The position numbers and the translations under genes were made by a program. The notes under the pieces are model-generated. The model worked only from the letters and a program-made list of their open reading frames with translations, searched no databases and had not been told where the DNA came from. From a virus, in IMG/VR virus record IMGVR_UViG_3300045538_000557, positions 1 to 30,383 of that record: DNA of 30,383 nucleotides; one strand, 5' to 3'. Position 1 is the first letter of the stretch. Every line of letters begins with the position of its first letter. Positions 13,646 to 29,937 of this stretch are shown piece after piece.

Positions 13646-16003
13646 TTAATTACCTACACGTTCAACAGAAAAATAAACATAACGAGCATCGTTGTTCAAG
13701 CTGATCGAATTAGTTGTGTTCATAGCATTATTTACACCAATATACAGAATATCTCCGGCAACACACGAAACAGTAGCTGTAAATTGAGTTGTATAATAAA
13801 CTGCAGAAGTACTAACAGCTGAAGTCCCGGATCCATTTAGGGCAGTACTTGTGCTATTTTTCATAACAACACAATATAATGTATTCCCTACAGTAAGAGG
13901 TGTTATTTGAGCATTAATAGATCCAGTTATGCGATATTTTCCGCTGACTGGTACGGTATAACTGCCAGTACTTGTATCATAACCATTTGTCGTGTCGTAT
14001 ACTTTGGTCGAATATTTAACAACATTAAATGCATTATTGGTTCCTGTAGTGCTTGTACTATTTGTATAAGCTGCAGCCACCGTGTCCGTAGCAGCGATCT
14101 GAGCTGGTCCGGAAAGACGTTCAATTTTTATATAAGCTGATGAAATTCCAACAGCGCCAGCTGTATTTTGAGTAGCTAAAGGATAAATTTTATCTCCAGC
14201 GTTTAATTTAAGTAAAATTGTTCCAAGACTGTAACTATATTGTGTTGGGTTTGTTGTTGCTGAAATTTCTGTCATTACTGAACTGCTATTTAATCCATAT
14301 CCAACTCTGAAAAGACCAGTAATGGTAGAAACTAAAGAACATGCAATTGTTATAGAATAAGTACCTGGTACTGTTATTGTGTAATTTGCTGAAGAACCGG
14401 ATGTCCAGCCTCCATTAGTATCAATAGCAGCGGATCCAATTTGTAACACTGTAACAACACTACTTGCAGAGATATTGTTAGTTGCTCCAGAAGCATAAAG
14501 CGCAACCACATTAGTCGCAGCATCTGAACTCATTACTACGTTAGATGACCAACCTGTGATTGGAACTTTTAATTGAGCATCGTACGTAAATCCACCCGTA
14601 AAAGGACTATCCGCACTTCCTTCAACGTTAGCACGTTCAAAAGATAAGTCAGTATTTACGTTATGTTGAGGTCGTACTAAAATAATTGATGTACTTAGTA
14701 ATGAAGAAAAAACGCCTCCTAAAGTGTAAAAAACACCGCCTCTAACGTAACCAGAATACGAACCAAGAAGAGTACCAAAATTATTTGTTCCGCCTGCACT
14801 ATCGGTAATAGTAGTCGTTAAATCTACTTTAGTAGTGTCAATCGACATTCCGGAGGGCAAACTAAAAGTATAATACCCGGAGCCGTTTGCAGTTCCAGAA
14901 ACTTTCATTAAAATCTCGGCACTGTCGCCGACTCTGCGCCATTTACCAGAAGCGGTTACGGTAGGATTAGAAGTTGATCCTGTAACAGTTGGAGTATAAC
15001 TCTGCCAATCTGTAACTGGACATCCATAACTAGCGTATTCAGGACCAACTGCAATTGTATCTAATGCAAACGTATACGCAGAAGCACTCACTGTTGCGAC
15101 TTGCACCACAAGTCTGTAGGAAGTCCCAGACGCTTGTGTCTGAAATGTAGCAATATGCCTCATTTTAGTTGAAGCTGTTGCACTTTGAATTTGGTAGCCC
15201 GCTGGTTGAATGATGACAGGAGTTCCAGAAGGATCTGCGATCAAATAAACTGTAAGGTCTCCCGTCGTATAAGTCCCTGAGAGTAATTCGTAATCAAATG
15301 TAACTGAAAGAGGTTTTGCTATATCTGCATTATCAATTGTGAAAGAGTATGCAACCCCTTCACCCATGTAGTTTGCAGCACCCTTGGTAAAATTAAAATC
15401 AGCTGAACCACGAAGAGGTGTAGTTGTATCTCTTGTCCAAGTAACGTTAGGTGATCCACCTGAGCCAGTTTTTGGAATAGATCTGACCATTGTGCCAGAC
15501 CCATTCGTAGTTAGAGCAAGAGCAGAACCTCCAACAGAAGTAGCAACTTGAAAGGTGTTAGTTGTAGGGTTTACAACGTAATAGAGAGTATTTGTTGAGA
15601 TCCCAGTTGTAGAAGTGATGGAGGTGAATGAGATTGCAGTTCCTGCCGCAATTCCATGATTATTTAGAGTAACTGTGTCCCCTGCATCTTGAAACGTGAC
15701 AGAGTCTGTTTCTTTATAAGTACTCCAACCAGTCGTTCCGTTTGCGGCATCAGGATTTAAAATGTAATTAATTCCAGCTTGTCCGCTTGCTCCAACTTCG
15801 GTCCAGTTAGTAGAAGAACCGGAGTCGTTCTTTCTATAGAGCTTTCCGGTACTAGAATTTAAAAGAAGCGAGCCAGGATTGGCAGAAGTTGCAGAACTTG
15901 TTGGATCAACTGTAGATGAGATGATGTCATTCCCACCACCCAAGTCAATTGTAGACTTTAAAGTCTTTACTTTAGTTCCTGAAAATATAACTGCACTACC
16001 CAT
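13646..16003 (-). CDS. Tail fibre / receptor-binding protein with C1q-like domains
   Basis: This 785-residue protein is rich in Ser, Thr and Gly. The N-terminus (SAVIFSGTKVKTLKSTIDLG, then SSTVDPTSSATSANPGSLLL and GKLYRKNDSGSSTNWTEV) is a common virion-anchoring and collar arrangement. Mid regions have jelly-roll-like carbohydrate-module patterns (YILNPDAANGTTGWSTYKE...). The C-terminal 300 residues hold two successive C1q/TNF-like domains, each with the pattern 'YTITVPGTYSITIACSL' or 'SYTVPVSGKYRITGSINAQI', consistent with trimeric receptor binding. An AGGA Shine-Dalgarno precedes the ATG. It is the likely host-range determinant together with the next gene. Confidence 0.75.
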   Translation of the reverse strand: MGSAVIFSGTKVKTLKSTIDLGGGNDIISSTVDPTSSATSANPGSLLLNSSTGKLYRKNDSGSSTNWTEVGASGQAGINYILNPDAANGTTGWSTYKETDSVTFQDAGDTVTLNNHGIAAGTAISFTSITSTTGISTNTLYYVVNPTTNTFQVATSVGGSALALTTNGSGTMVRSIPKTGSGGSPNVTWTRDTTTPLRGSADFNFTKGAANYMGEGVAYSFTIDNADIAKPLSVTFDYELLSGTYTTGDLTVYLIADPSGTPVIIQPAGYQIQSATASTKMRHIATFQTQASGTSYRLVVQVATVSASAYTFALDTIAVGPEYASYGCPVTDWQSYTPTVTGSTSNPTVTASGKWRRVGDSAEILMKVSGTANGSGYYTFSLPSGMSIDTTKVDLTTTITDSAGGTNNFGTLLGSYSGYVRGGVFYTLGGVFSSLLSTSIILVRPQHNVNTDLSFERANVEGSADSPFTGGFTYDAQLKVPITGWSSNVVMSSDAATNVVALYASGATNNISASSVVTVLQIGSAAIDTNGGWTSGSSANYTITVPGTYSITIACSLVSTITGLFRVGYGLNSSSVMTEISATTNPTQYSYSLGTILLKLNAGDKIYPLATQNTAGAVGISSAYIKIERLSGPAQIAATDTVAAAYTNSTSTTGTNNAFNVVKYSTKVYDTTNGYDTSTGSYTVPVSGKYRITGSINAQITPLTVGNTLYCVVMKNSTSTALNGSGTSAVSTSAVYYTTQFTATVSCVAGDILYIGVNNAMNTTNSISLNNDARYVYFSVERVGN

Positions 16004-16027: not shown

Positions 16028-18139
16028 CTATGCGTAGAAGTTAACAGAAATTTCACCCACGCTTGCCGTCGCACTCACTGCCTTAATTGCAACACGAGTA
16101 GATGTCGCTATCGCAAGAGAGATGCGCCCATTACCGCCTGGAAAAATATAAATTTGATCTGATTCAGACCCAGCCCCCCCGGTTGCAAGGACCAGGGTTT
16201 GACCTGAAGAGTCAAAAATCTCAACTTCATTCACAGCACCAGAAGTGGAAGCAAGAAGCTGTACATAAGCCCCAGTCGTGACTGAGGTGGATGTATAATC
16301 AATTCTTGCTCTATTTCTGACTGAACGGCCAACTTGTGAAGTGTTTAAATTACTTTGATCACTAGCAATGACGACTGGAGCACTTCCAGTCATTGCTTTT
16401 TGACCTAAAGATCCAAACTTTCCATTAAGTCCTGATAAAGTAGTTTCAGAAGCGGCCCCTGTGGGGAGAGACACTACCCCTGAAACGTTCGTAATATTCC
16501 AAACACCACTCTGACTTGCTGGTACTGCACTTTGATCGCTTGCAATGACAACTGGAAGTGAAGTTGCCATAGGTCTTTGGCCATCTAAAGCTGTATCAAT
16601 ATCTGAAAGAGTCGCTGCTACAACAAGCGCGCCGCTTGGATTAACCTTACAATTGACATAACCACCGCCTCCTCCAGTCGTGACTCCTGTGATCACAGAT
16701 CTATTTAAGGAAGCTAAGCTATTGTCTGTTAAAGTATCCGTAATTTTCGTATACGAACTAGTCGTACCTCCTGCCCAACACGCCGTGGCCATAATTAAAT
16801 TAGTAGCATCAGCACTTGTTTTTTTGACGTCTAATGTGATGGGTAGGTTCGGGTCAGCAATGCTTGGATTTAAAGAAGAGTTAGGCTGTTTGATGGTGTG
16901 AAAGTTTACCCAAACACCATCAGGAGAAAATACGTCAAATAAAATAGACGCAGATCCTAACCAACCAAAACGAATTCTAAATAAATTGGAATAGGCCAAA
17001 TTAATGGCTTCCGGAGATCCATTTCTAGTAAACTTTGATCCCGATGCTCCAGTTAATAAATCACCATTAAAACTTGCTCGCGCTGTACTTGTATCACTTG
17101 CCCCAGTTCTAACCGTGACTCCAAAGCTTGTTCCCTCATATCCAAGAAAAAATCCATTATTAGAATCGTAGATCCCAATTCTTTGATAAGAGTTTACGCT
17201 GGTTGGAGCAGTGAATGCTGCGGTAAAGTAAGCATAACTTTCAGAAGCTGGTCTATAAATTACACTGTTTACTGAAACGGCTTTTGCCTGTGCAGTAGTT
17301 GCAGTACTTGTTGAGTAAAGAGCATGACCATTAGTATGACTTACAGCTCCCCCACCTGATAAGGTTTGAGTGATGTAAGTAGAGCCAGGAGCAGTTTCAA
17401 AATTAACTTCAATTTGATTGTAGCGCGTTCCTGAAATAGTAGTGGCAAAAACATCATTGCCTGGATCTATTGCAGCTTTTATGACGTTTACGTCTAAACC
17501 TTTGATCGGTCCAATCGAAGTAGAAGTAATTACTCCACCTGATGCATCTACAATTTGAGTTTTTTGAGAGCCGGAAGTTTGATTAGAACTTGTAGCAGCT
17601 CCAGTTGGCAATGCACTAGATAAAACATCAACTTGTAATTCACCATCACTGTCTGTTTTTAATACTTGGACAGCGCTTCCATCGTATCCACTCACAACTT
17701 TAGTCAACGCAGGTAATGCACCACCATCTGCGGCAGTTGCAGCTTCACTAAATGAAGATACGGTAAGAAGCTCACCTGAAGCGTTTACTACTGGATACTT
17801 GTGTCTTAAAATTTGGAAACTGACACCCAAGGCTGGTGCTGAAGGGAGTTCTTCAGCAAGTGTAATTGTATTGGAAGCAACGGAGTACACTTTCACTTCT
17901 TGACCATTCAAGGTCCCTGATGTGAAACGGATGATATCGCCTACTTGCGCAGCGTGGCCAGTTGCATTGATGAGTGTTGTTGTGGATGATGCCTCAGCCG
18001 TGTCAGTCCCTACTTCACGGACGAATTGATGAGCTAACACGGACAAACCATTTTGAAGGACTCTAACAGGCTCTACCGTGGCATACTGTGGTGTTAACCT
18101 GTCATCTTTTTCCTGTGTCGGCCAGCCCTTGATGCTCAT
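16028..18139 (-). CDS. Large structural protein, probable tail appendage
   Basis: This 703-residue beta-rich protein has several repeated short modules: two PVVIASDQS segments near residues 540 and 595, and two LPTGAA(T/S) segments. The first 130 residues form a domain with HAAQVGDIIRFTSGTLNGQE, typical of small beta-barrels. A lectin-like central domain follows (AYFTAAFTAPTSVNSYQRIG, FRIRFGWLGSASILFDVFSP). The C-terminus is another beta domain (AVNEVEIFDSSGQTLVL). The PVVIASDQS pattern recurs in structural proteins of many environmental phages. It is probably a fibre base, whisker or spike; no enzymatic motif is seen. GGGGAG nine bases upstream sets the ATG. Confidence 0.65.
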   Translation of the reverse strand: MSIKGWPTQEKDDRLTPQYATVEPVRVLQNGLSVLAHQFVREVGTDTAEASSTTTLINATGHAAQVGDIIRFTSGTLNGQEVKVYSVASNTITLAEELPSAPALGVSFQILRHKYPVVNASGELLTVSSFSEAATAADGGALPALTKVVSGYDGSAVQVLKTDSDGELQVDVLSSALPTGAATSSNQTSGSQKTQIVDASGGVITSTSIGPIKGLDVNVIKAAIDPGNDVFATTISGTRYNQIEVNFETAPGSTYITQTLSGGGAVSHTNGHALYSTSTATTAQAKAVSVNSVIYRPASESYAYFTAAFTAPTSVNSYQRIGIYDSNNGFFLGYEGTSFGVTVRTGASDTSTARASFNGDLLTGASGSKFTRNGSPEAINLAYSNLFRIRFGWLGSASILFDVFSPDGVWVNFHTIKQPNSSLNPSIADPNLPITLDVKKTSADATNLIMATACWAGGTTSSYTKITDTLTDNSLASLNRSVITGVTTGGGGGYVNCKVNPSGALVVAATLSDIDTALDGQRPMATSLPVVIASDQSAVPASQSGVWNITNVSGVVSLPTGAASETTLSGLNGKFGSLGQKAMTGSAPVVIASDQSNLNTSQVGRSVRNRARIDYTSTSVTTGAYVQLLASTSGAVNEVEIFDSSGQTLVLATGGAGSESDQIYIFPGGNGRISLAIATSTRVAIKAVSATASVGEISVNFYA

Positions 18140-19038: not shown

Positions 19039-20496
19039 TTAGGTCGCTAAACCAGTGATCACTCCATGAAAATTTGGCGTCACATAAAATTGGCAATAGC
19101 CTCCGAACCTAAAAGAGTAGCTGTCAGAAGACGCATCTCTTAACAAAACCGTGCCGTCGTCATCAAAAAAACCGAAGTCTGGCCGATGGTGAATGGTGAG
19201 GTAGTTGTCATTGAGCAAGTACACTCTGTCATCTTCACAGAAACGCTCTGGGAAGATACCGACTGGGCCAGCTGCAGACATGAATTCAAGACCGCGGAAA
19301 GAAATTTTTCCAACGAGGTCTTGAGCTCTTGGATCCAGAAGATATTGTTTTTGATCTTCAAGAATGTTTAAGAGCTTACGATACTGAGTGAAAGAAGTGA
19401 TAATCAGGTTAGGAACCTTTCCAGACTTGCGTTGAATTTCCATCATACCCTGATTCAGAATGTCAGCGGTAATACCAGCTGAAGAAGCCGCAATCTGAGC
19501 AGAAGCCTGCCAGCGACGACCTACAGTGATGCTGTACTGAGTTCCGGAAGTAGCATCCAACACACCTTTCAAGCCTGCAGGATCGTTGTCTTTAGAATAC
19601 TGCATGTATAATGTCTTTGCACCAGTATCCGCAGTCAAGTCCACAGTTCCAGAGATTCTGGAAAGTGTTAACGTGCGGGTAGATGGAGCAACAGCGGTGA
19701 TTTCCCAAATAGCACTCGTGCTATAAGGATTAGTCACGCTGTCCAACATAATATAATCGCGCTCTTCGAAGTTTGCTTCCTTCCAAGTAGCGGAAGAAAT
19801 CACCACGGTTGGAGCTGCTGCAGTACCGCCTGCTGCGGCTGCAGTGGTCACACCGAGAGACCCTGTGCCGTCATTGAACAATGTACGGCTCATATTTCTC
19901 ATCCAAGACTCAACCGCTTTTTGGGTTGAATATTTGGTCAATTCCACGAATGACCCGCTATCCACGCTAGCTGCTTTGATGGCCTCACGGTCAATCTGTC
20001 CTACAGCATACATTTTTTTAGCTTCAATCACTGCATCCTGAACAGATGCATAGTTAGCGATAGGAAGAGAGCCAGAGCCGACGCCGCCAGCGAAAGAGGT
20101 TGGAACTGCAATGTCCATTCTCTTACCGACGAAGTTATATTCCTTCTTACAACGTCCTAAAAGGACGTTAGCAGAATTGTAGGTATTATCTGCGAGCTTC
20201 ACTTTTGTTACCGTTAAGGCTTTTTATCCCTAACTTCTCACCATTAAATTCTGGTGAGGTCAGCATACATTTTCACCTGTTCAGGCAGGTGGAGGCGGCT
20301 CTTGGAGGAATTTTAATCTTGTCCTCTATGCGTTACGAACTACTAAATCCATTTAGTTAGCCCTCGGTATTTCCATCTCAGGGTTCACCGAAACACGCCC
20401 CTTTTCATCTATCTATTACTAGATAGAGCGGCAAACTCAACTACCGTACTTGATTTTGAATAAATTTGAGGCTGTACTTAGACTAAATTGTGCCAC
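19039..20496 (-). CDS. Major capsid protein, split by a group I intron (join 20496-20443 and 20199-19039)
   Basis: This is the main HK97-fold-type shell protein, 404 residues after splicing. The first exon (18 codons) starts at GTG 20496 with AAGGAG eight bases upstream. The second exon is 386 codons to TAA at 19039. The spliced start reads MAQFSLSTASNLFKIKYG, then KLADNTYNSANVLLGRC, giving the usual capsid N-terminus with LFK-KYG before a GK...VP segment (VGKRMDIAVPTSFAGGVGSG). The second-exon ORF alone would start at a GTG (20202) with no Shine-Dalgarno and lack this N-terminus, so the split reading is preferred. Unspliced RNA stops after 19 codons at TGA. Downstream of the scaffold gene, as in P22. 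Residues such as SVESWMRN and LLNDNYLTIHHRPDFGFFDD are also typical of this capsid group. Confidence 0.85.
20200..20442 (-). ncRNA. Group I self-splicing intron, ORF-less (243 nt)
   Basis: In intron numbering (n = 20443 minus position), P1 pairs exon CGGU with n11-14 GCCG, giving U.G at the 5' site. P10 pairs n5-10 GAGUUU with AAGCUC at the start of exon 2 (6 bp). P2 is n17-22/29-34; P3 n42-47/146-151; P4 n50-56/75-81 with GAA and AAAU joints around a short P5; P6 n82-91/96-104. P7 is n110-116/176-181 with bulged C111 and the G-site pair G112-C180; P7.1 n117-121/134-138; P8 n152-157/164-169; P9 n185-190/201-206; P9.1 n209-214/224-230. P9.0 pairs n183-184 with n241-242, and n243 is the terminal G. 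An extra helix between P7 and P3 suggests subgroup IA, the usual phage type. Confidence 0.88.
20443..20496 (-). other. Major capsid gene exon 1 (18 codons)
   Basis: GTG start at 20494-20496, ending in GGT at 20443-20445, in frame with exon 2 at AAG (20197-20199). It encodes MAQFSLSTASNLFKIKYG. The last four bases, CGGU in RNA, form P1 with the intron guide sequence. Standard annotation would miss this exon because it is followed by AGT TGA in the unspliced RNA. Confidence 0.85.
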
Positions 20497-20504
20497 TTTA
20501 GTTT

Positions 20505-20510
20505 CTCCTT
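20505..20510 (-). promoter_or_regulatory. Shine-Dalgarno that fixes the true capsid start
   Basis: AAGGAG overlaps the scaffold stop codon and lies 8 bases before GTG 20496. It has no other gene to serve, and so marks the capsid start on the far side of the intron. Confidence 0.8.
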
Positions 20511-21726
20511 AGATGTCTTCAAAAAAGAGGGGATCACTTCCTGATCTCTTTACCCCAGCCTCAGCTTGAGACCGTTTTTGAATTTTAGTTATTTTTTTAC
20601 TTAACTTCTTAGCCGCTAAGTTCCCATGTAGCGACTGTATGACCTCATCAATCTCCTCAGGCGTAGCCTGGGTTTGGATTGCGAGTTGTGCGAGCTTTTC
20701 GACCTCTTGATAGTTCCCTGCAAGCTCTGGATTTACCGCAACTAGTTTCGATTCAATCGTTTCAACTAGTTTGAGGTTTCCGAAATACTCTCCGACTTGT
20801 TCGGGAGTAATTTGATCTGCCGGTACACCATTTTTGACAAGAGTATCGTAAGCTTCCACGAAATCTTGTTTAGACATCTGCTTTGAAGTGAGAATATCTA
20901 AGACTTGAGTTTCAAGGGCTTTCACCTTGGCTGCTTCCGCTTGTTGGGTTTTGGCAGCTTCCTCACGTTGCTTAAAATACGTATTCTCTTCCTCAAGACG
21001 CTTCAGTCTTAATTCCTCTGGGGATAGTGTAGACTCTTCTTCCATGACTTGTCGAATTTTTTCGACTGCGTCATTGTAAAGTTTTTGACCATCCGTTCCG
21101 AGGTTCTCTCCTAAGAGCTCTATAAAACCTTTTAAATCTTTTTTCTGAGCGAGCAGCTCATGTGACTTGGTCAGAACATCATTTATTTTCTGACGCTGAC
21201 TATTAAACTCTTCCCGCTCTACTTTATGCTTTTTAAATAAATCGTCTAAATGTCTTTGTTGACTGTAACGGTTAATTATTTCTTGTACCGGTACTTCTAT
21301 ACTTTTTCCGTCAACTTTAACAGAAACTAAGGCGTCCGACTGAATTTCAACATCTTGGCCATTGTTTTTAAATTTTAACGGCTTTACGATGTTTTTGCTT
21401 AGATTTTCGTCTTTCGCCTTAGTTTTTGTATGACTCGTTTTAGTTTGATCTGAAGTTACTTCTTCTTTGTTTTTTTCTTCACTGCTTTTTTCTTCGCCAT
21501 GGTTTTCTCCTTTCTTATTTATTACTTCATCTAAATCATCGCCCTCATCCTTTCGGCGTTGGGCAGTCTTTACTTCTGGATCTTTTTTAAAATTATCTCG
21601 CCAGTTATTTACAGCGGATAATTCATCCCAGCTCACCGGACTTGATCCGCCTACGACTTCGATTGGTTCCTGAACGTTTGCAGTTTCTACGTTAACACTT
21701 GTAGTCTGCGCTGCGCTTTCACTCAT
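20509..21726 (-). CDS. Capsid scaffolding protein
   Basis: This 405-residue, highly charged, helical protein lies between portal and capsid genes. The N-terminal 130 residues are acidic and probably disordered (EGDDLDEVINKKGENHGEEK...). Then come a small beta element (DGKSIEVPVQEIINRYS) and long coiled coils (QRQKINDVLTKSHELLAQKK; EELRLKRLEEENTYFKQREE). It ends with a Lys-rich helix (LSKKITKIQKRSQ) before SGSDPLFFEDI. Scaffolds direct capsid assembly around the portal and leave before DNA packaging, and a basic C-terminal helix typically binds coat. Position and composition make the call strong; sequence similarity cannot be tested here. GGAG in the portal stop region is its Shine-Dalgarno. 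Confidence 0.85.
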   Translation of the reverse strand: MSESAAQTTSVNVETANVQEPIEVVGGSSPVSWDELSAVNNWRDNFKKDPEVKTAQRRKDEGDDLDEVINKKGENHGEEKSSEEKNKEEVTSDQTKTSHTKTKAKDENLSKNIVKPLKFKNNGQDVEIQSDALVSVKVDGKSIEVPVQEIINRYSQQRHLDDLFKKHKVEREEFNSQRQKINDVLTKSHELLAQKKDLKGFIELLGENLGTDGQKLYNDAVEKIRQVMEEESTLSPEELRLKRLEEENTYFKQREEAAKTQQAEAAKVKALETQVLDILTSKQMSKQDFVEAYDTLVKNGVPADQITPEQVGEYFGNLKLVETIESKLVAVNPELAGNYQEVEKLAQLAIQTQATPEEIDEVIQSLHGNLAAKKLSKKITKIQKRSQAEAGVKRSGSDPLFFEDI

Positions 21727-21729
21727 TCT

Positions 21730-23946
21730 CTATACTCCGCTTGTCGGTTGAACGGGACCACTTAGCCCCAGTTGTTGTTCGATAGTTGGTTCTGGCATAT
21801 TGACTGGTTGCTGACCCACTTGAGGATTGACTGGCATACCAGGTAAGGACTGAATAGGTGCTCCTGTTGCATCTTGTCCCGCCATCTGTGGCTGCTCAGG
21901 CATGGGGGGGCTCAACGGCATAGGCATGTAGAACATGGGAAACAATGCAAGCTTTGAAAGTTCTTGAGCGAACATTGGATTTTTCTGAGCGACTTCCATC
22001 ATGAGCATCTCATGAGCCATGATGTGATTGATCACTCGTTTCTGAACCGGCTCAGGAGTCTGATACTTAAAGGAGTACTCTTGAACTAATCGAGTATGCT
22101 CTCTCCAATGAATGATATGATTTTCAAACTCTTTCGGAGATAACTGTTCTTCACTCAATGCATCTTTAGTATCACGTGACAACTCTTCATTCTCTGCTTG
22201 AGCTGTTCTGACTGCAACTGTAGCCGCATCAATAAACTTCTCGGACTGGCCCAAGTCTAAAAGATCAATGACTTGTTCAGAAGTAAATTGATCAGGAAAC
22301 CTTTCATTTAAATCTAAAAGAGTCTGAGTTCTAGCTGCAATCGATCTTGGTAGAGCTGAAGTGTTTTGGATTCTAATGTCATAATCCTTTTCAAGGAATG
22401 CAACATTGAAAAACTTAGTCATCCAGGAGTTATCTTTTCCAATGACTCGAATCATTCTTTCATCTGACTCATCATAATAATCGCCACAGACTGCCAGAGT
22501 TAGTTTAGCGATATTTAAGATCATGTCATTGTACTTGAGCACTAGCTCATTATATCTTTCGCTCTCTTGTTCAGAGAGGAACTGAAGGGCAACCCCAGCT
22601 TTAATTCCAGGAGGTGGCTCACCCCGACTTACTCCAAAGACACCTGAGATCTGTTGAAACTCTTCCTTAATCTTCTCTCGGAATGCAAAGACGTCGCTTG
22701 GAACTGTTGTGGCAGTCGCAAGTACTGGTGGTTGAGGCCCCTTATATTGAACTATAGTGATATCGTTAGCCAGTCGATCTAGGGATATACTTCCAGAAGG
22801 TACCATCCATTTTGGGTGGGAAGCGAGCACGATATTGCGCAAGAGCATATTCGTGATGTTGTTATAAGTCCCAGTTAGTTGTTTGATGTTTTCAAAGAAG
22901 GACACTCCATACAATTCACCTGGGTACTCAATATCTGTAAACCTGATGAATGGGAGTTGATCATGTGAGAATGGGCTTTGTTCATTTTCCAAGATCACAT
23001 CTTTCAAAAATACGATCTTGCGGCCCTTGTCCATCATTGGGCTTCGACGATGCCAGAAGGTGTAAACAACAACTTCTCCACGCGCTGGCCTGAGTTCCAT
23101 TTTCTCGTAATCATAGACCTGAGCGTCATCAAGATCCTTAATCTTAGATGCTTTCTCTGGATATCTCTGCCTTAATTCTTGAGTATTGATCAGCTCGCGA
23201 GTGAAACAGTAATCTACGTCTACGAACTGACGCTTTTTCTGGAGTAGAATCTCAGAAGCAAGCCAAACTTGATACTTAACGTCACCAGTTCTTACAGGAC
23301 GATCAATATAAACGGTATTCCCTTGAGGGTCTTTAGTTGGTTGTCCATCTTCATTCAAGACTGGGACTTTTCCGCCATGTTCTTTAGACGCCTTCACCCA
23401 CGCGGGGTTGAGATCACCTTTGTTTTCATCCCAAAGGACGAAGAGGTAACTTTCACCCATGACTAAAGCATTGGTGACGAGTTGAATCTGAATCTTTCCC
23501 TCAAAATCTGACTCGTACCAAATATGGTCTAAAAGCTGCTTAGTCACTTTCGCTGCGACCTTATCTCCTAACTCATCGTTAGTGGGAAGGATGGCAACGG
23601 CTGGCTTAAACTTGATTAGGCGTGAGGCGCGATTTTTCGTTAGATCATACAGTTGATTACTGACGATCTTTCTGACGACTTGAGCCCTATCTGTTCCTCG
23701 ATCTCTGGCATCTAACCTTGTCTCTAACTCTTGGTATTGAATGCCCTTATACAGCGCGAGATTTCTTCTCATGACTCTAATTCTGGGCTCGTTCTCTTGC
23801 TCTAAGAATCCAAGTTCCGAGGATAGCCACCTCAAAATATCTTGTTCATTCCTAGAATCATCTAGGTCTAAAGAATAGAGTGGGTATTTGGGTTGAGAGA
23901 ACGATTTGTCCAAAGTATCTAGTGCGCCGTCAAAGAAGTAACTCAT
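21730..23946 (-). CDS. Portal protein (P22 type)
   Basis: This 738-residue protein forms the dodecameric ring at one capsid vertex through which DNA is packaged and released. The N-terminal region (NEPRIRVMRRNLALYKGIQY, IVSNQLYDLTKNRASRLIKF, ALVMGESYLFVLWDENKGDL) matches the wing and clip of large podovirus portals. A long helical stem follows, then a C-terminal barrel-like helix rich in acidic and Gln residues, and a Pro/Met/Gln-rich tail (PMPLSPPMPEQPQMAG). Its size (P22 gp1 is 725) and the neighbouring terminase and scaffold genes agree. The start overlaps the small membrane-protein gene as ATGA. Confidence 0.92.
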   Translation of the reverse strand: MSYFFDGALDTLDKSFSQPKYPLYSLDLDDSRNEQDILRWLSSELGFLEQENEPRIRVMRRNLALYKGIQYQELETRLDARDRGTDRAQVVRKIVSNQLYDLTKNRASRLIKFKPAVAILPTNDELGDKVAAKVTKQLLDHIWYESDFEGKIQIQLVTNALVMGESYLFVLWDENKGDLNPAWVKASKEHGGKVPVLNEDGQPTKDPQGNTVYIDRPVRTGDVKYQVWLASEILLQKKRQFVDVDYCFTRELINTQELRQRYPEKASKIKDLDDAQVYDYEKMELRPARGEVVVYTFWHRRSPMMDKGRKIVFLKDVILENEQSPFSHDQLPFIRFTDIEYPGELYGVSFFENIKQLTGTYNNITNMLLRNIVLASHPKWMVPSGSISLDRLANDITIVQYKGPQPPVLATATTVPSDVFAFREKIKEEFQQISGVFGVSRGEPPPGIKAGVALQFLSEQESERYNELVLKYNDMILNIAKLTLAVCGDYYDESDERMIRVIGKDNSWMTKFFNVAFLEKDYDIRIQNTSALPRSIAARTQTLLDLNERFPDQFTSEQVIDLLDLGQSEKFIDAATVAVRTAQAENEELSRDTKDALSEEQLSPKEFENHIIHWREHTRLVQEYSFKYQTPEPVQKRVINHIMAHEMLMMEVAQKNPMFAQELSKLALFPMFYMPMPLSPPMPEQPQMAGQDATGAPIQSLPGMPVNPQVGQQPVNMPEPTIEQQLGLSGPVQPTSGV

Positions 23947-24149
23947 ACTGCCTCGAAGATATCTTTATTCATTTTTTCTTCCAAGTCTTTTGTCACTTTT
24001 TCAAATTCTGGGTTGGCTGGTACGTACTGAATCGAATGTGTGCTTTTTTGCATTGCTTTGACTTCTGTCAGGCACCACAAACTCATCATGATAGAAAACG
24101 TAGAAATTAAGATAGAAAAAAGCAAAATTGCACCAAAAAATGCTTCCAT
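23943..24149 (-). CDS. Small membrane protein between terminase and portal
   Basis: This 68-residue protein has one strong hydrophobic segment (residues 4-26, FFGAILLFSILISTFSIMMSL) and a charged, soluble tail (PEFEKVTKDLEEKMNKD). It is fused by overlaps to its neighbours: one base with the terminase stop (TAATG) and four with the portal start (ATGA), so it is certainly translated with them. A membrane protein in the packaging block is unusual. It could be an early exclusion factor or a membrane anchor for assembly; there is no evidence for either. Confidence 0.7.
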   Translation of the reverse strand: MEAFFGAILLFSILISTFSIMMSLWCLTEVKAMQKSTHSIQYVPANPEFEKVTKDLEEKMNKDIFEAV

Positions 24150-25528
24150 TAAAAATCCTCAAACTCGTTTTGTGAAAGCTCAGGAAAATCCTGAGCCGGG
24201 GTATATCCCCGCTTCATTTCTACTACATCTAACTTAGGCTCTTTAGTTGTCAAAATGGAATAATAGTTCGAATCAAAAATATATCTTAAGCAGTCAATCA
24301 GGTGATCATCCTTTTTAGGGATTCTACCTGATGAGTCTTTTCTATAATTCTCTAACTCCCAAAACAGCTTCTTGCATCTGTCACTAATCTTGAGTTTGCC
24401 ATGGAGCATGACATCTTTAATTAAAGATAAGCCTGTAAGCTTGTCGGACTTCATTTTTTGAGTCGGTTCAAGATGCTCATTGAAAACGTCTAAAACTTCA
24501 TTAGCAAACCAGGTAGAGGCTTCATCGTAGCCTTGTTGCCATTCCTCATCCCAAAGCTCATCTCTTTTTTCTCGAATCTTAGGCCAAATCTTACCCACAG
24601 TCATTTCAGCTTGTTCCAGCTCATAGATCTCATCTAGGCAATAGACGACTTTAGAATATGGATTGATCGCACAGAATAGAACGGCAAAACATGAAGCCCC
24701 GGCAGGATCGCACCAAAACACCCATCGCAGTTTCTTACGATCCCGCCAGAGTTCACCCAAGAGCGTGTTATGGCTTTGGATGAAACTTTCTTTGAGCATC
24801 GGGAAGATTGCAGAAGCCCCCCCACGGACGAACTTAGCTTCATACTCTCTTTCCCACTTATCCCCTTCTCCTAAAGCATATAACTCAGCTTTCTTTTTCT
24901 CAAGCCACTCAAGTGAAATGTGAGGGTTAGCAGAAGTTGGAAATTCAAAGTATCTTTTCTGAGGATCTTTTTTAAAAGCATCTGAGAGCTTAGTGAATTG
25001 ACACTCAAACTCAGGGGGGGTTCCAATAATCATGAGAGGAGAGTCAAAAGCAGCTCGGTTAGGATCGTAGGCTTCATAAAACTCAGGTCTGAAGTCTTTG
25101 AACTCGTCAAATACAGATAACCCTCTAGGTTTCACTCCTCGGTAAGCTTCCACATTGTCAGAACCATCAAGTTTAATAAAACTCTGATTCTTAAATGTGA
25201 TTCGCATCTCAGTGTTGTTAATATCTTCAATCCATTCGCTTGGTCCAAAGTCCTGAATACGGCGAGAGGACCACAGAATTTCTCTTGCTTGTTTCATGTA
25301 AGGAGCAAAGTAGTAATTCTCAGAGTTGGGGAATGTAAAAGCATAGCGCCAAAGCAGATAAGAGACTAACTCTGACTTTCCGAAGTTTCTTCCGCATTGT
25401 GCAAAGAGTTCCTTGACCTCACCTGAGATAAGAGGTCTTCCAATCTCAATTTGAGCAGAATGAGGAATCCATCGATCGTGAAGTTCCTTAATCCCCAAGG
25501 CTATGCGTTGAATTTCTGGATGAATCAC
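24149..25528 (-). CDS. terL: Terminase large subunit (packaging ATPase/nuclease)
   Basis: This 459-residue protein is the motor that drives DNA into the procapsid and cuts the concatemer. The N-terminal ATPase has the Walker A variant GRNFGKS at residues 46-52, Walker B LSVFDE at 137-142, and the coupling motif MIIGTPPE at 166-173. The C-terminal RNase H-like nuclease shows D274 in FWCDPAG, D335 in GYDEAS, and acidic DDH..D (407, 408, 412), the expected catalytic aspartates. The start is GTG at 25528, preceded by an AGGA-like signal, and lies 41 bases inside the methyltransferase gene. Partner small terminase: 26609-26992. Packaging is probably headful, given the P22-like head block and permuted ends. 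Confidence 0.95.
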   Translation of the reverse strand: MIHPEIQRIALGIKELHDRWIPHSAQIEIGRPLISGEVKELFAQCGRNFGKSELVSYLLWRYAFTFPNSENYYFAPYMKQAREILWSSRRIQDFGPSEWIEDINNTEMRITFKNQSFIKLDGSDNVEAYRGVKPRGLSVFDEFKDFRPEFYEAYDPNRAAFDSPLMIIGTPPEFECQFTKLSDAFKKDPQKRYFEFPTSANPHISLEWLEKKKAELYALGEGDKWEREYEAKFVRGGASAIFPMLKESFIQSHNTLLGELWRDRKKLRWVFWCDPAGASCFAVLFCAINPYSKVVYCLDEIYELEQAEMTVGKIWPKIREKRDELWDEEWQQGYDEASTWFANEVLDVFNEHLEPTQKMKSDKLTGLSLIKDVMLHGKLKISDRCKKLFWELENYRKDSSGRIPKKDDHLIDCLRYIFDSNYYSILTTKEPKLDVVEMKRGYTPAQDFPELSQNEFEDF

Positions 25529-29124: not shown

Positions 29125-29385
29125 GTGCGTGTAGTGCGTAGTGCAGAAGTTGAATTGCCAAGATTAAAAAAACTTATTCGTAATCTTGCTGAATATTATT
29201 TTAAATCTGTCACTGAAAACCAAATTGAAATGTATGCAGAAGACTTACTGCCGATGGGCAGTGAACTAGCTGAGCAAGCTTCAAGAGAATATCGCCAAGG
29301 ATTTGGAAATATTGATTTTCCAATCCCAGCAATTTTGAAACAACAAGTAGGTTTTTTTGAAAATACTTTACTGAAAACAGGGTAG
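29125..29385 (+). CDS. Helicase-loader-like domain paralog, copy 1
   Basis: This 86-residue protein starts at GTG 29125 with AAGGAG upstream. It shares with copies 2 and 3 the pattern MR(V/I)V(R/K)S...E(L/M)P.L, EYYF, EMYAEDLLPMGSEL and FP(I/V/L)P. The run 'L..YYF....E.QIEMYAEDLLPMG' then 'FPIP.IL' matches the N-terminal domain of helicase loader proteins, including the preceding gene's FFPQPGEIL. It may bind the host helicase or compete with the full loader. Copies are all 86 residues and diverged, so the triplication is not recent. Confidence 0.72.
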   Translation: MRVVRSAEVELPRLKKLIRNLAEYYFKSVTENQIEMYAEDLLPMGSELAEQASREYRQGFGNIDFPIPAILKQQVGFFENTLLKTG

Positions 29386-29401
29386 CTCATATTGTGTTCT
29401 C

Positions 29402-29662
29402 ATGAGAATTGTAAAAAGCCCTGAAGAAGAAATGCCTATTTTAAGAGCTCTTGTAAGAGATTTGGGAGAGTATTATTTTACTCCTCTTACCGATAAACAA
29501 GTAGAAATGTATGCTGAAGATTTGTTGCCAATGGGTAGTGAGTTAGCTTTAAAAGCTGCTTCAAAGTATCGTAAAAGTTTTTACAACAATAAATTCCCAG
29601 TACCAGCGACGCTGAAGCGAACTGTTTACTTCTTTGATCGAAATAATTTAAAAACTCCTTAA
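29402..29662 (+). CDS. Helicase-loader-like domain paralog, copy 2
   Basis: 86 residues from ATG 29402; the closest landmarks are MRIVKSPEEEMPILRAL, EYYFTPLTDKQVEMYAEDLL and KFPVPATLK. It is aligned without gaps to copies 1 and 3. Its start has only a weak Shine-Dalgarno, 16 bases after copy 1's stop. It has more substitutions in the C-terminal third (YFFDRNNLKTP) than the others. Same inference as for copy 1; it may have a distinct partner or be a specificity variant. Confidence 0.7.
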   Translation: MRIVKSPEEEMPILRALVRDLGEYYFTPLTDKQVEMYAEDLLPMGSELALKAASKYRKSFYNNKFPVPATLKRTVYFFDRNNLKTP

Positions 29663-29676
29663 ATAAGGGGCACTGT

Positions 29677-29937
29677 ATGCGTGTAGTACGTAGTCCAGAA
29701 ATTGAATTGCCAATTTTAAAAGACATTGTAAGAGATTTGTCCGAATATTATTTTACTTCTCTGAGTGAAAAACAAATTGAGATGTATGCTCAAGACTTGT
29801 TAGCTATGGGGAGTGAACTAACAATACAAGCAGTGTCAAAATATCGAAAAGGTTTTGGAAATACTGAGTTTCCACTTCCAGTTGTTTTAAAACAAGAAAT
29901 TCAATTTTATGACGAGATATTGTTAGATATAGTTTAA
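29677..29937 (+). CDS. Helicase-loader-like domain paralog, copy 3
   Basis: 86 residues from ATG 29677, with AAGGGG upstream and 14 bases after copy 2. MRVVRSPEIELPILKDIV, EKQIEMYAQDLLAMGSEL and EFPLPVVLKQE place it with copies 1 and 2. LAMG replaces LPMG of the other copies and the C-terminus ends LLDIV, so it has diverged mainly at the end. Gene order and shared length argue for tandem duplication before divergence. Confidence 0.7.
   Translation: MRVVRSPEIELPILKDIVRDLSEYYFTSLSEKQIEMYAQDLLAMGSELTIQAVSKYRKGFGNTEFPLPVVLKQEIQFYDEILLDIV

Follow-up and report, generated by a model that had tools for sequence, protein, structure and literature searches.

The major capsid gene of the virus studied here is almost certainly interrupted, between codons 18 and 19, by an IA-like group I intron that contains no open reading frame (ORF). 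The DNA analysed (hereafter the window) is a 30,383-base single virus record of unstated completeness, on whose minus strand the gene is laid out as an 18-codon exon (20496-20443), a 243-nt insert (20442-20200) and a capsid ORF (20199-19039); the individual features are collected in Table 1. Exon 1 begins with the GTG at 20496, behind a strong Shine-Dalgarno sequence, is translated as VAQFSLSTASNLFKIKYG and has its last base at 20443. An in-frame TGA follows two codons past its end, and the reading resumes with KLADN at 20199; apart from the insert, the capsid frame is intact. All of these elements (Shine-Dalgarno, GTG, 18 codons ending in KIKYG, stop and resumption at KLADN) had been described in the first-pass annotation of this DNA, whose intron interval equals the insert to the base. 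Exon 2 matches PHROG 14242 (major head protein, E=5e-13) and the Pfam family SU10_MCP, and a search of the capsid protein against phage and plasmid collections gave no match. The neighbouring ORF at 20509-21726 has no PHROG or Pfam match, and the name “scaffold” given to it earlier was conjecture, as were the words “small” and “lytic” applied to the phage.

Because translation of an unspliced mRNA would end two codons inside the intron, capsid synthesis would require splicing; the dependence of capsid output on splicing that had been proposed thus stands, and regulation by splicing is conjectural. For this gene, a gene caller would give a truncated capsid protein.

Table 1. Features of the interrupted capsid gene and of its predicted intron, in transcript order (window positions).
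Feature	Position	Strand	Evidence
Shine-Dalgarno AAGGAG of capsid gene	20505-20510	-	sequence
Exon 1: GTG + 17 codons, (M/V)AQFSLSTASNLFKIKYG	20443-20496	-	peptide joined to KLADN in nearly all relatives
P1 exon strand CGGU, U.G at 5' splice site	20443-20446	-	
Group I intron (predicted), 243 nt, without ORF; 5' end AGUUGAG, 3' end GUG with terminal G at 20200	20200-20442	-	
P10 intron strand GAGUUU, pairs with exon 2 AAGCUC (20199-20194)	20433-20438	-	
P1 intron strand GCCG (internal guide sequence)	20429-20432	-	
P2 hairpin CUAUCUA/UAGAUAG	20409-20426	-	
P3 5' strand	20396-20401	-	covariation
P4-P5 hairpin (CGGU-GAA-CCC ... AAU-ACCG)	20364-20391	-	covariation
P6/P6a hairpin	20337-20363	-	covariation
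P7 5' strand (AxGCAUA, one bulged base)	20327-20333	-	covariation
P7.1 hairpin between P7 and P3', IA feature	20305-20326	-	covariation
P3 3' strand	20292-20297	-	covariation
P8 hairpin	20274-20291	-	covariation
P7 3' strand (UAUGCU)	20262-20267	-	covariation
P9 hairpin	20237-20258	-	covariation
P9.1 hairpin GUUAGGG/CCUUAAC	20213-20234	-	
Exon 2: remainder of SU10-like major capsid protein, 386 aa + stop	19039-20199	-	PHROG, Pfam

The boundaries of the insert can be read directly from related viruses. A scan of viral contigs returned 77 relatives of exon 2, and the sequence ahead of the match showed, in nearly all of them, MAQFSLxTASNLFKIKYG or something very similar joined without a gap to KLADN or KLSEN (about 70 encode a gapless N-terminus of this kind). 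Since these relatives carry both exons as one uninterrupted sequence, the insert is an intervening sequence whose boundaries are known. The exceptions at the identical site are L003 (identical in DNA to L032), L020 and L035, so that three other distinct viruses besides the window have the site occupied; in each, the reading stops just before the junction, where an insert of 231-235 nt separates exon 2 from an intact exon 1 further upstream. A fifth copy, in L051, is a 267-nt relative of the insert at a second site, near the capsid C-terminus, and its in-frame removal restores DFGFFDDDGTV.

These relatives also bear on the simplest alternative, namely that there is no intron, that the capsid protein starts at the GTG at 20202, where an ORF does begin, and that the 18 upstream codons are spurious or form a separate leader peptide. 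However, MAQFSLSTASNLFKIKYG is fused to KLADN in nearly all relatives, the stretch directly before 20202 (GGUAACAAAAGUG) has no Shine-Dalgarno-like run, and the other same-site introns end in CUG or GCG, not in ATG or GTG. Because the last codon of the insert varies among the four same-site introns (GUG, CUG, GCG and CUG; the L051 intron ends in AUG), the 20202 GTG is not a conserved start, and we give this explanation practically no credence. Homologous capsids starting at this GTG had been named beforehand as the observation that would speak against an intron, and the opposite was seen, with exon 1 joined to KLADN.

The fold of the insert was examined by comparative analysis. A core pattern (GGNGAANNCTGANANGNNAATNCCNANG), drawn from five capsid inserts, matched 39 viral stretches, and 19 distinct matches were aligned from P3 to P9 and compared with a group I structure written by hand, with 45 pairs. 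In these 19 homologues 92.4% of the cells are paired over the 45 pairs, against 31-44% when the structure is slid by 1-3 columns, a control somewhat favourable to the structure because it was drawn on the same sequences. Two-sided changes, which this circumstance does not explain, occur in 33 of the 45 pairs, and none of 500 shuffles reaches any of the measures. Across the 19 aligned introns P3, P4, P6 and P7 are 100% paired, P5 95% and P8 92%, every helix from P3 to P8 showing two-sided changes; P3, paired in every sequence, changes at all six of its positions (6/6). The P7 pseudoknot is the class-defining feature of group I introns, and here P7 shows A-U/G-C swaps at two positions around its one-base bulge. 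The 19 aligned introns also have a P7.1, with 95.8% of its cells paired, and the longer family members a second hairpin; because P7.1 sits between P7 and P3', it points to subgroup IA.

In the window, the insert folds better than its shuffles (z = -3.7; 1 of 200 as good). As the contig is a single virus record, one could also think of an assembly artefact, or of an intron so degenerate that it no longer splices and so kills the capsid gene of this genome; we consider this very improbable, since the core helices are all intact, the capsid frame is otherwise intact, and the homologues at the same site in other contigs keep their pairs despite differing in sequence.

At the splice sites of all five introns, the guide sequence is paired with the tail of exon 1, the last pair being U.G; the terminal intron base is G, and a P10 of 5-9 bp abuts P1. 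Guide bases and exon 2 change together: exon 2 AAGUU pairs with AACUU in L003, AAGCU with AGCUU in L020 and L035, and at the second site, in L051, a wholly different guide (UUGGAU/GUCCAA) fits the local exons too. Short of RNA, this fit of P1 and P10 across introns is the strongest evidence for the proposed group I mechanism and, together with the covarying core, its agreement with the exons at two different insertion sites supports the group I reading of the first-pass annotation. The P1 pairing predicted there (CGGU/GCCG, with U.G at the splice site) and the terminal G at 20200 are both present, as is the P10 pairing GAGUUU/AAGCUC, which by strict count comprises 7 bp instead of the 6 given. 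The two-base P9.0 placed before the terminal G is not conserved in the proposed register, its bases differing across the five introns (by eye); J7/9 is nearly constant while the 3'-terminal bases vary.

From these features we infer catalysis and splicing in vivo. The pre-mRNA would fold into a P3-P9/P4-P6 ribozyme, in which an exogenous guanosine, held in P7, would attack the P1 U.G pair after ...UACGGU; the freed exon 1 would then attack past the terminal G, with P10 aligning exon 2, and the product would be a GGU-AAG junction within a single continuous capsid ORF. Translational bypassing, in which the ribosome skips the insert with no splicing, as in T4 gene 60, would also have a stop almost directly after exon 1. 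Nevertheless, none of the landing codons (GUG, CUG, GCG, CUG) matches the take-off codon GGU, and the inserts, 231-267 nt long, carry a complete covarying ribozyme core and a P1/P10 fit, so that we find bypassing barely conceivable. A group II intron was ruled out, Rfam group II models having no match in the window.

The group I assignment was further examined with two covariance models, both of which omit P7: R1, which includes the window intron, and R2, whose 14 training introns lie outside the set of exon 2 relatives and include no copy from this capsid gene. R2 finds all five introns of this gene, the window intron at 127 bits (E=1.6e-39). When R1 is run on complete phage genomes, its matches include a T4 intron annotated as “group 1A intron in nrdD” (E=2.9e-8) and, in Twort, a site (16652-16842) with a virion gene on one side and an intron-encoded nuclease on the other (E=2.4e-4). 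The SPO1 genome, known to carry an intron, is not matched by R1, and the family therefore covers just a portion of IA diversity. With P7.1 and the T4 nrdD match as its basis, the assignment suggested here is IA-like. A search with the Rfam group I model (RF00028), proposed in the first-pass annotation as a check, reported nothing in the window at the gathering threshold or at E<=10, and nothing in ten family members at the gathering threshold; such a match is a measure of library coverage rather than of the biology of the class. The standard RNA library thus misses a widespread family of phage introns. Two pattern matches (L087 and L105), with no model match, were discarded as chance.

The distribution of the intron is patchy. 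In a quick capsid tree of moderate support each of the four N-terminal-site introns occupies a separate branch, and intron-bearing alleles adjoin intron-less sisters at 94-97% identity; mobility is therefore implied. The synonymous junction TACGGT is found in 4/4 intron alleles versus 6/52 intron-less ones (p=0.0006, an optimistic value since the rows are related), which fits coconversion on homing or a P1 constraint. At 231-243 nt, the four N-terminal-site introns are too short for an endonuclease gene, and Pfam detected no endonuclease (HNH, GIY-YIG, LAGLIDADG) among the 26 window proteins scanned. The intron would be a mobile, patchily spread element of a larger phage intron family, without an endonuclease of its own, and was probably moved by a trans-supplied endonuclease, by recombination between capsid alleles or by reverse splicing.

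Regarding this larger family, 15 of the 31 distinct introns matched by the pattern (about half) lie in major capsid genes, a share that may be biased because the pattern came from capsid introns and that includes three assignments (L080, L085 and L100) made solely by similarity to L097. The capsid introns span at least four PHROG families (14242, 1328, 334 and 9953; the PHROG matches of L115 and L097 are weak), and other members sit in genes for a virion protein, portal, terminase, ribonucleotide reductase and tRNA. L113, L115 and L116 are relatives with endonuclease-like ORFs (by eye and mutual similarity). Many filamentous cyanobacterial genomes (L141-L168) carry close members of the family, which is also present in other bacterial genomes. 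Three different intron sites were seen in a single capsid family, phrog_334 (L083:892-1072, L088:3306-3486 and L093:7345-7525). A tentative reading, which we regard as possible but rather doubtful, is that of a compact IA-like family, invisible to Rfam, that has become specialised for the capsid genes of phages (four or more capsid families and, within one gene, several sites; often endonuclease-less), for which capsid genes would be a recurrent niche and in which splicing may time capsid production.

Group I introns in capsid genes are already known, and the window intron adds one. In the mycobacteriophage LittleE (Cluster J), such an intron was proven by RT-PCR and N-terminal protein sequencing, and Tuc2009 is cited in the same paper as another case (PMC3706429). 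Going by its description, the LittleE intron resembles the one in the window in splitting the major capsid gene, in the U at the exon end and in the terminal G; it differs in being about 819 bp long, with an endonuclease ORF, and in belonging to another phage lineage and capsid family. The tail intron of BAKA (also Cluster J; PMC3706429), at 265 bp, is short like that of the window. Among the R1 matches, the T4 nrdD (sunY) group IA intron lies, unlike the window intron, in a nucleotide-metabolism gene and carries I-TevII. Those of Staphylococcus phage ROSA (7588-7806, E=2.2e-24) and Twort lie beside virion genes and HNH or intron-encoded nucleases, differing from the window in their host genes and in the endonuclease genes alongside. 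Bajarodcaudo virus 1 (PQ006092) likewise has a capsid gene annotated in pieces and an R1 match of 129 bits, but several introns with endonucleases in that one gene; its capsid region (L118, PQ006092.1 17453-22568) holds several model matches (record 19843-24463), with intron-associated endonucleases between the capsid pieces. A 2025 survey of Bastillevirinae describes phage introns as mostly confined to genes of nucleotide and DNA metabolism and asks why introns colonised those genes only (PMC11878797); with about half of one family's distinct pattern matches in major capsid genes, this question becomes testable.

Other observations were made along the way. One family member (L110:2209-2552) lies within an apparent phage tRNA-Leu(UAA) gene, in the 5' half of its anticodon stem, and this tRNA is absent from the ARAGORN list. 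According to a 2014 review, all phage introns observed to date lay in protein-coding genes (PMC3984707). In five related but distinct contigs (L096, L098, L102, L107 and L111), an ORF that ends in YLxRKY and contains a GDG motif, as LAGLIDADG-type homing endonucleases typically do, stands just upstream of the intron core, an arrangement that is possibly an intron inside an endonuclease or intein. In the window itself, three tandem paralogous 86-aa ORFs (29125-29937, plus strand; RVVRS/RIVKS ... EYYF ... QIEMYAEDLLPMGSEL) gave no Pfam match, and a 785-aa protein with a C1q-like domain (13646-16003, minus strand) is probably structural.
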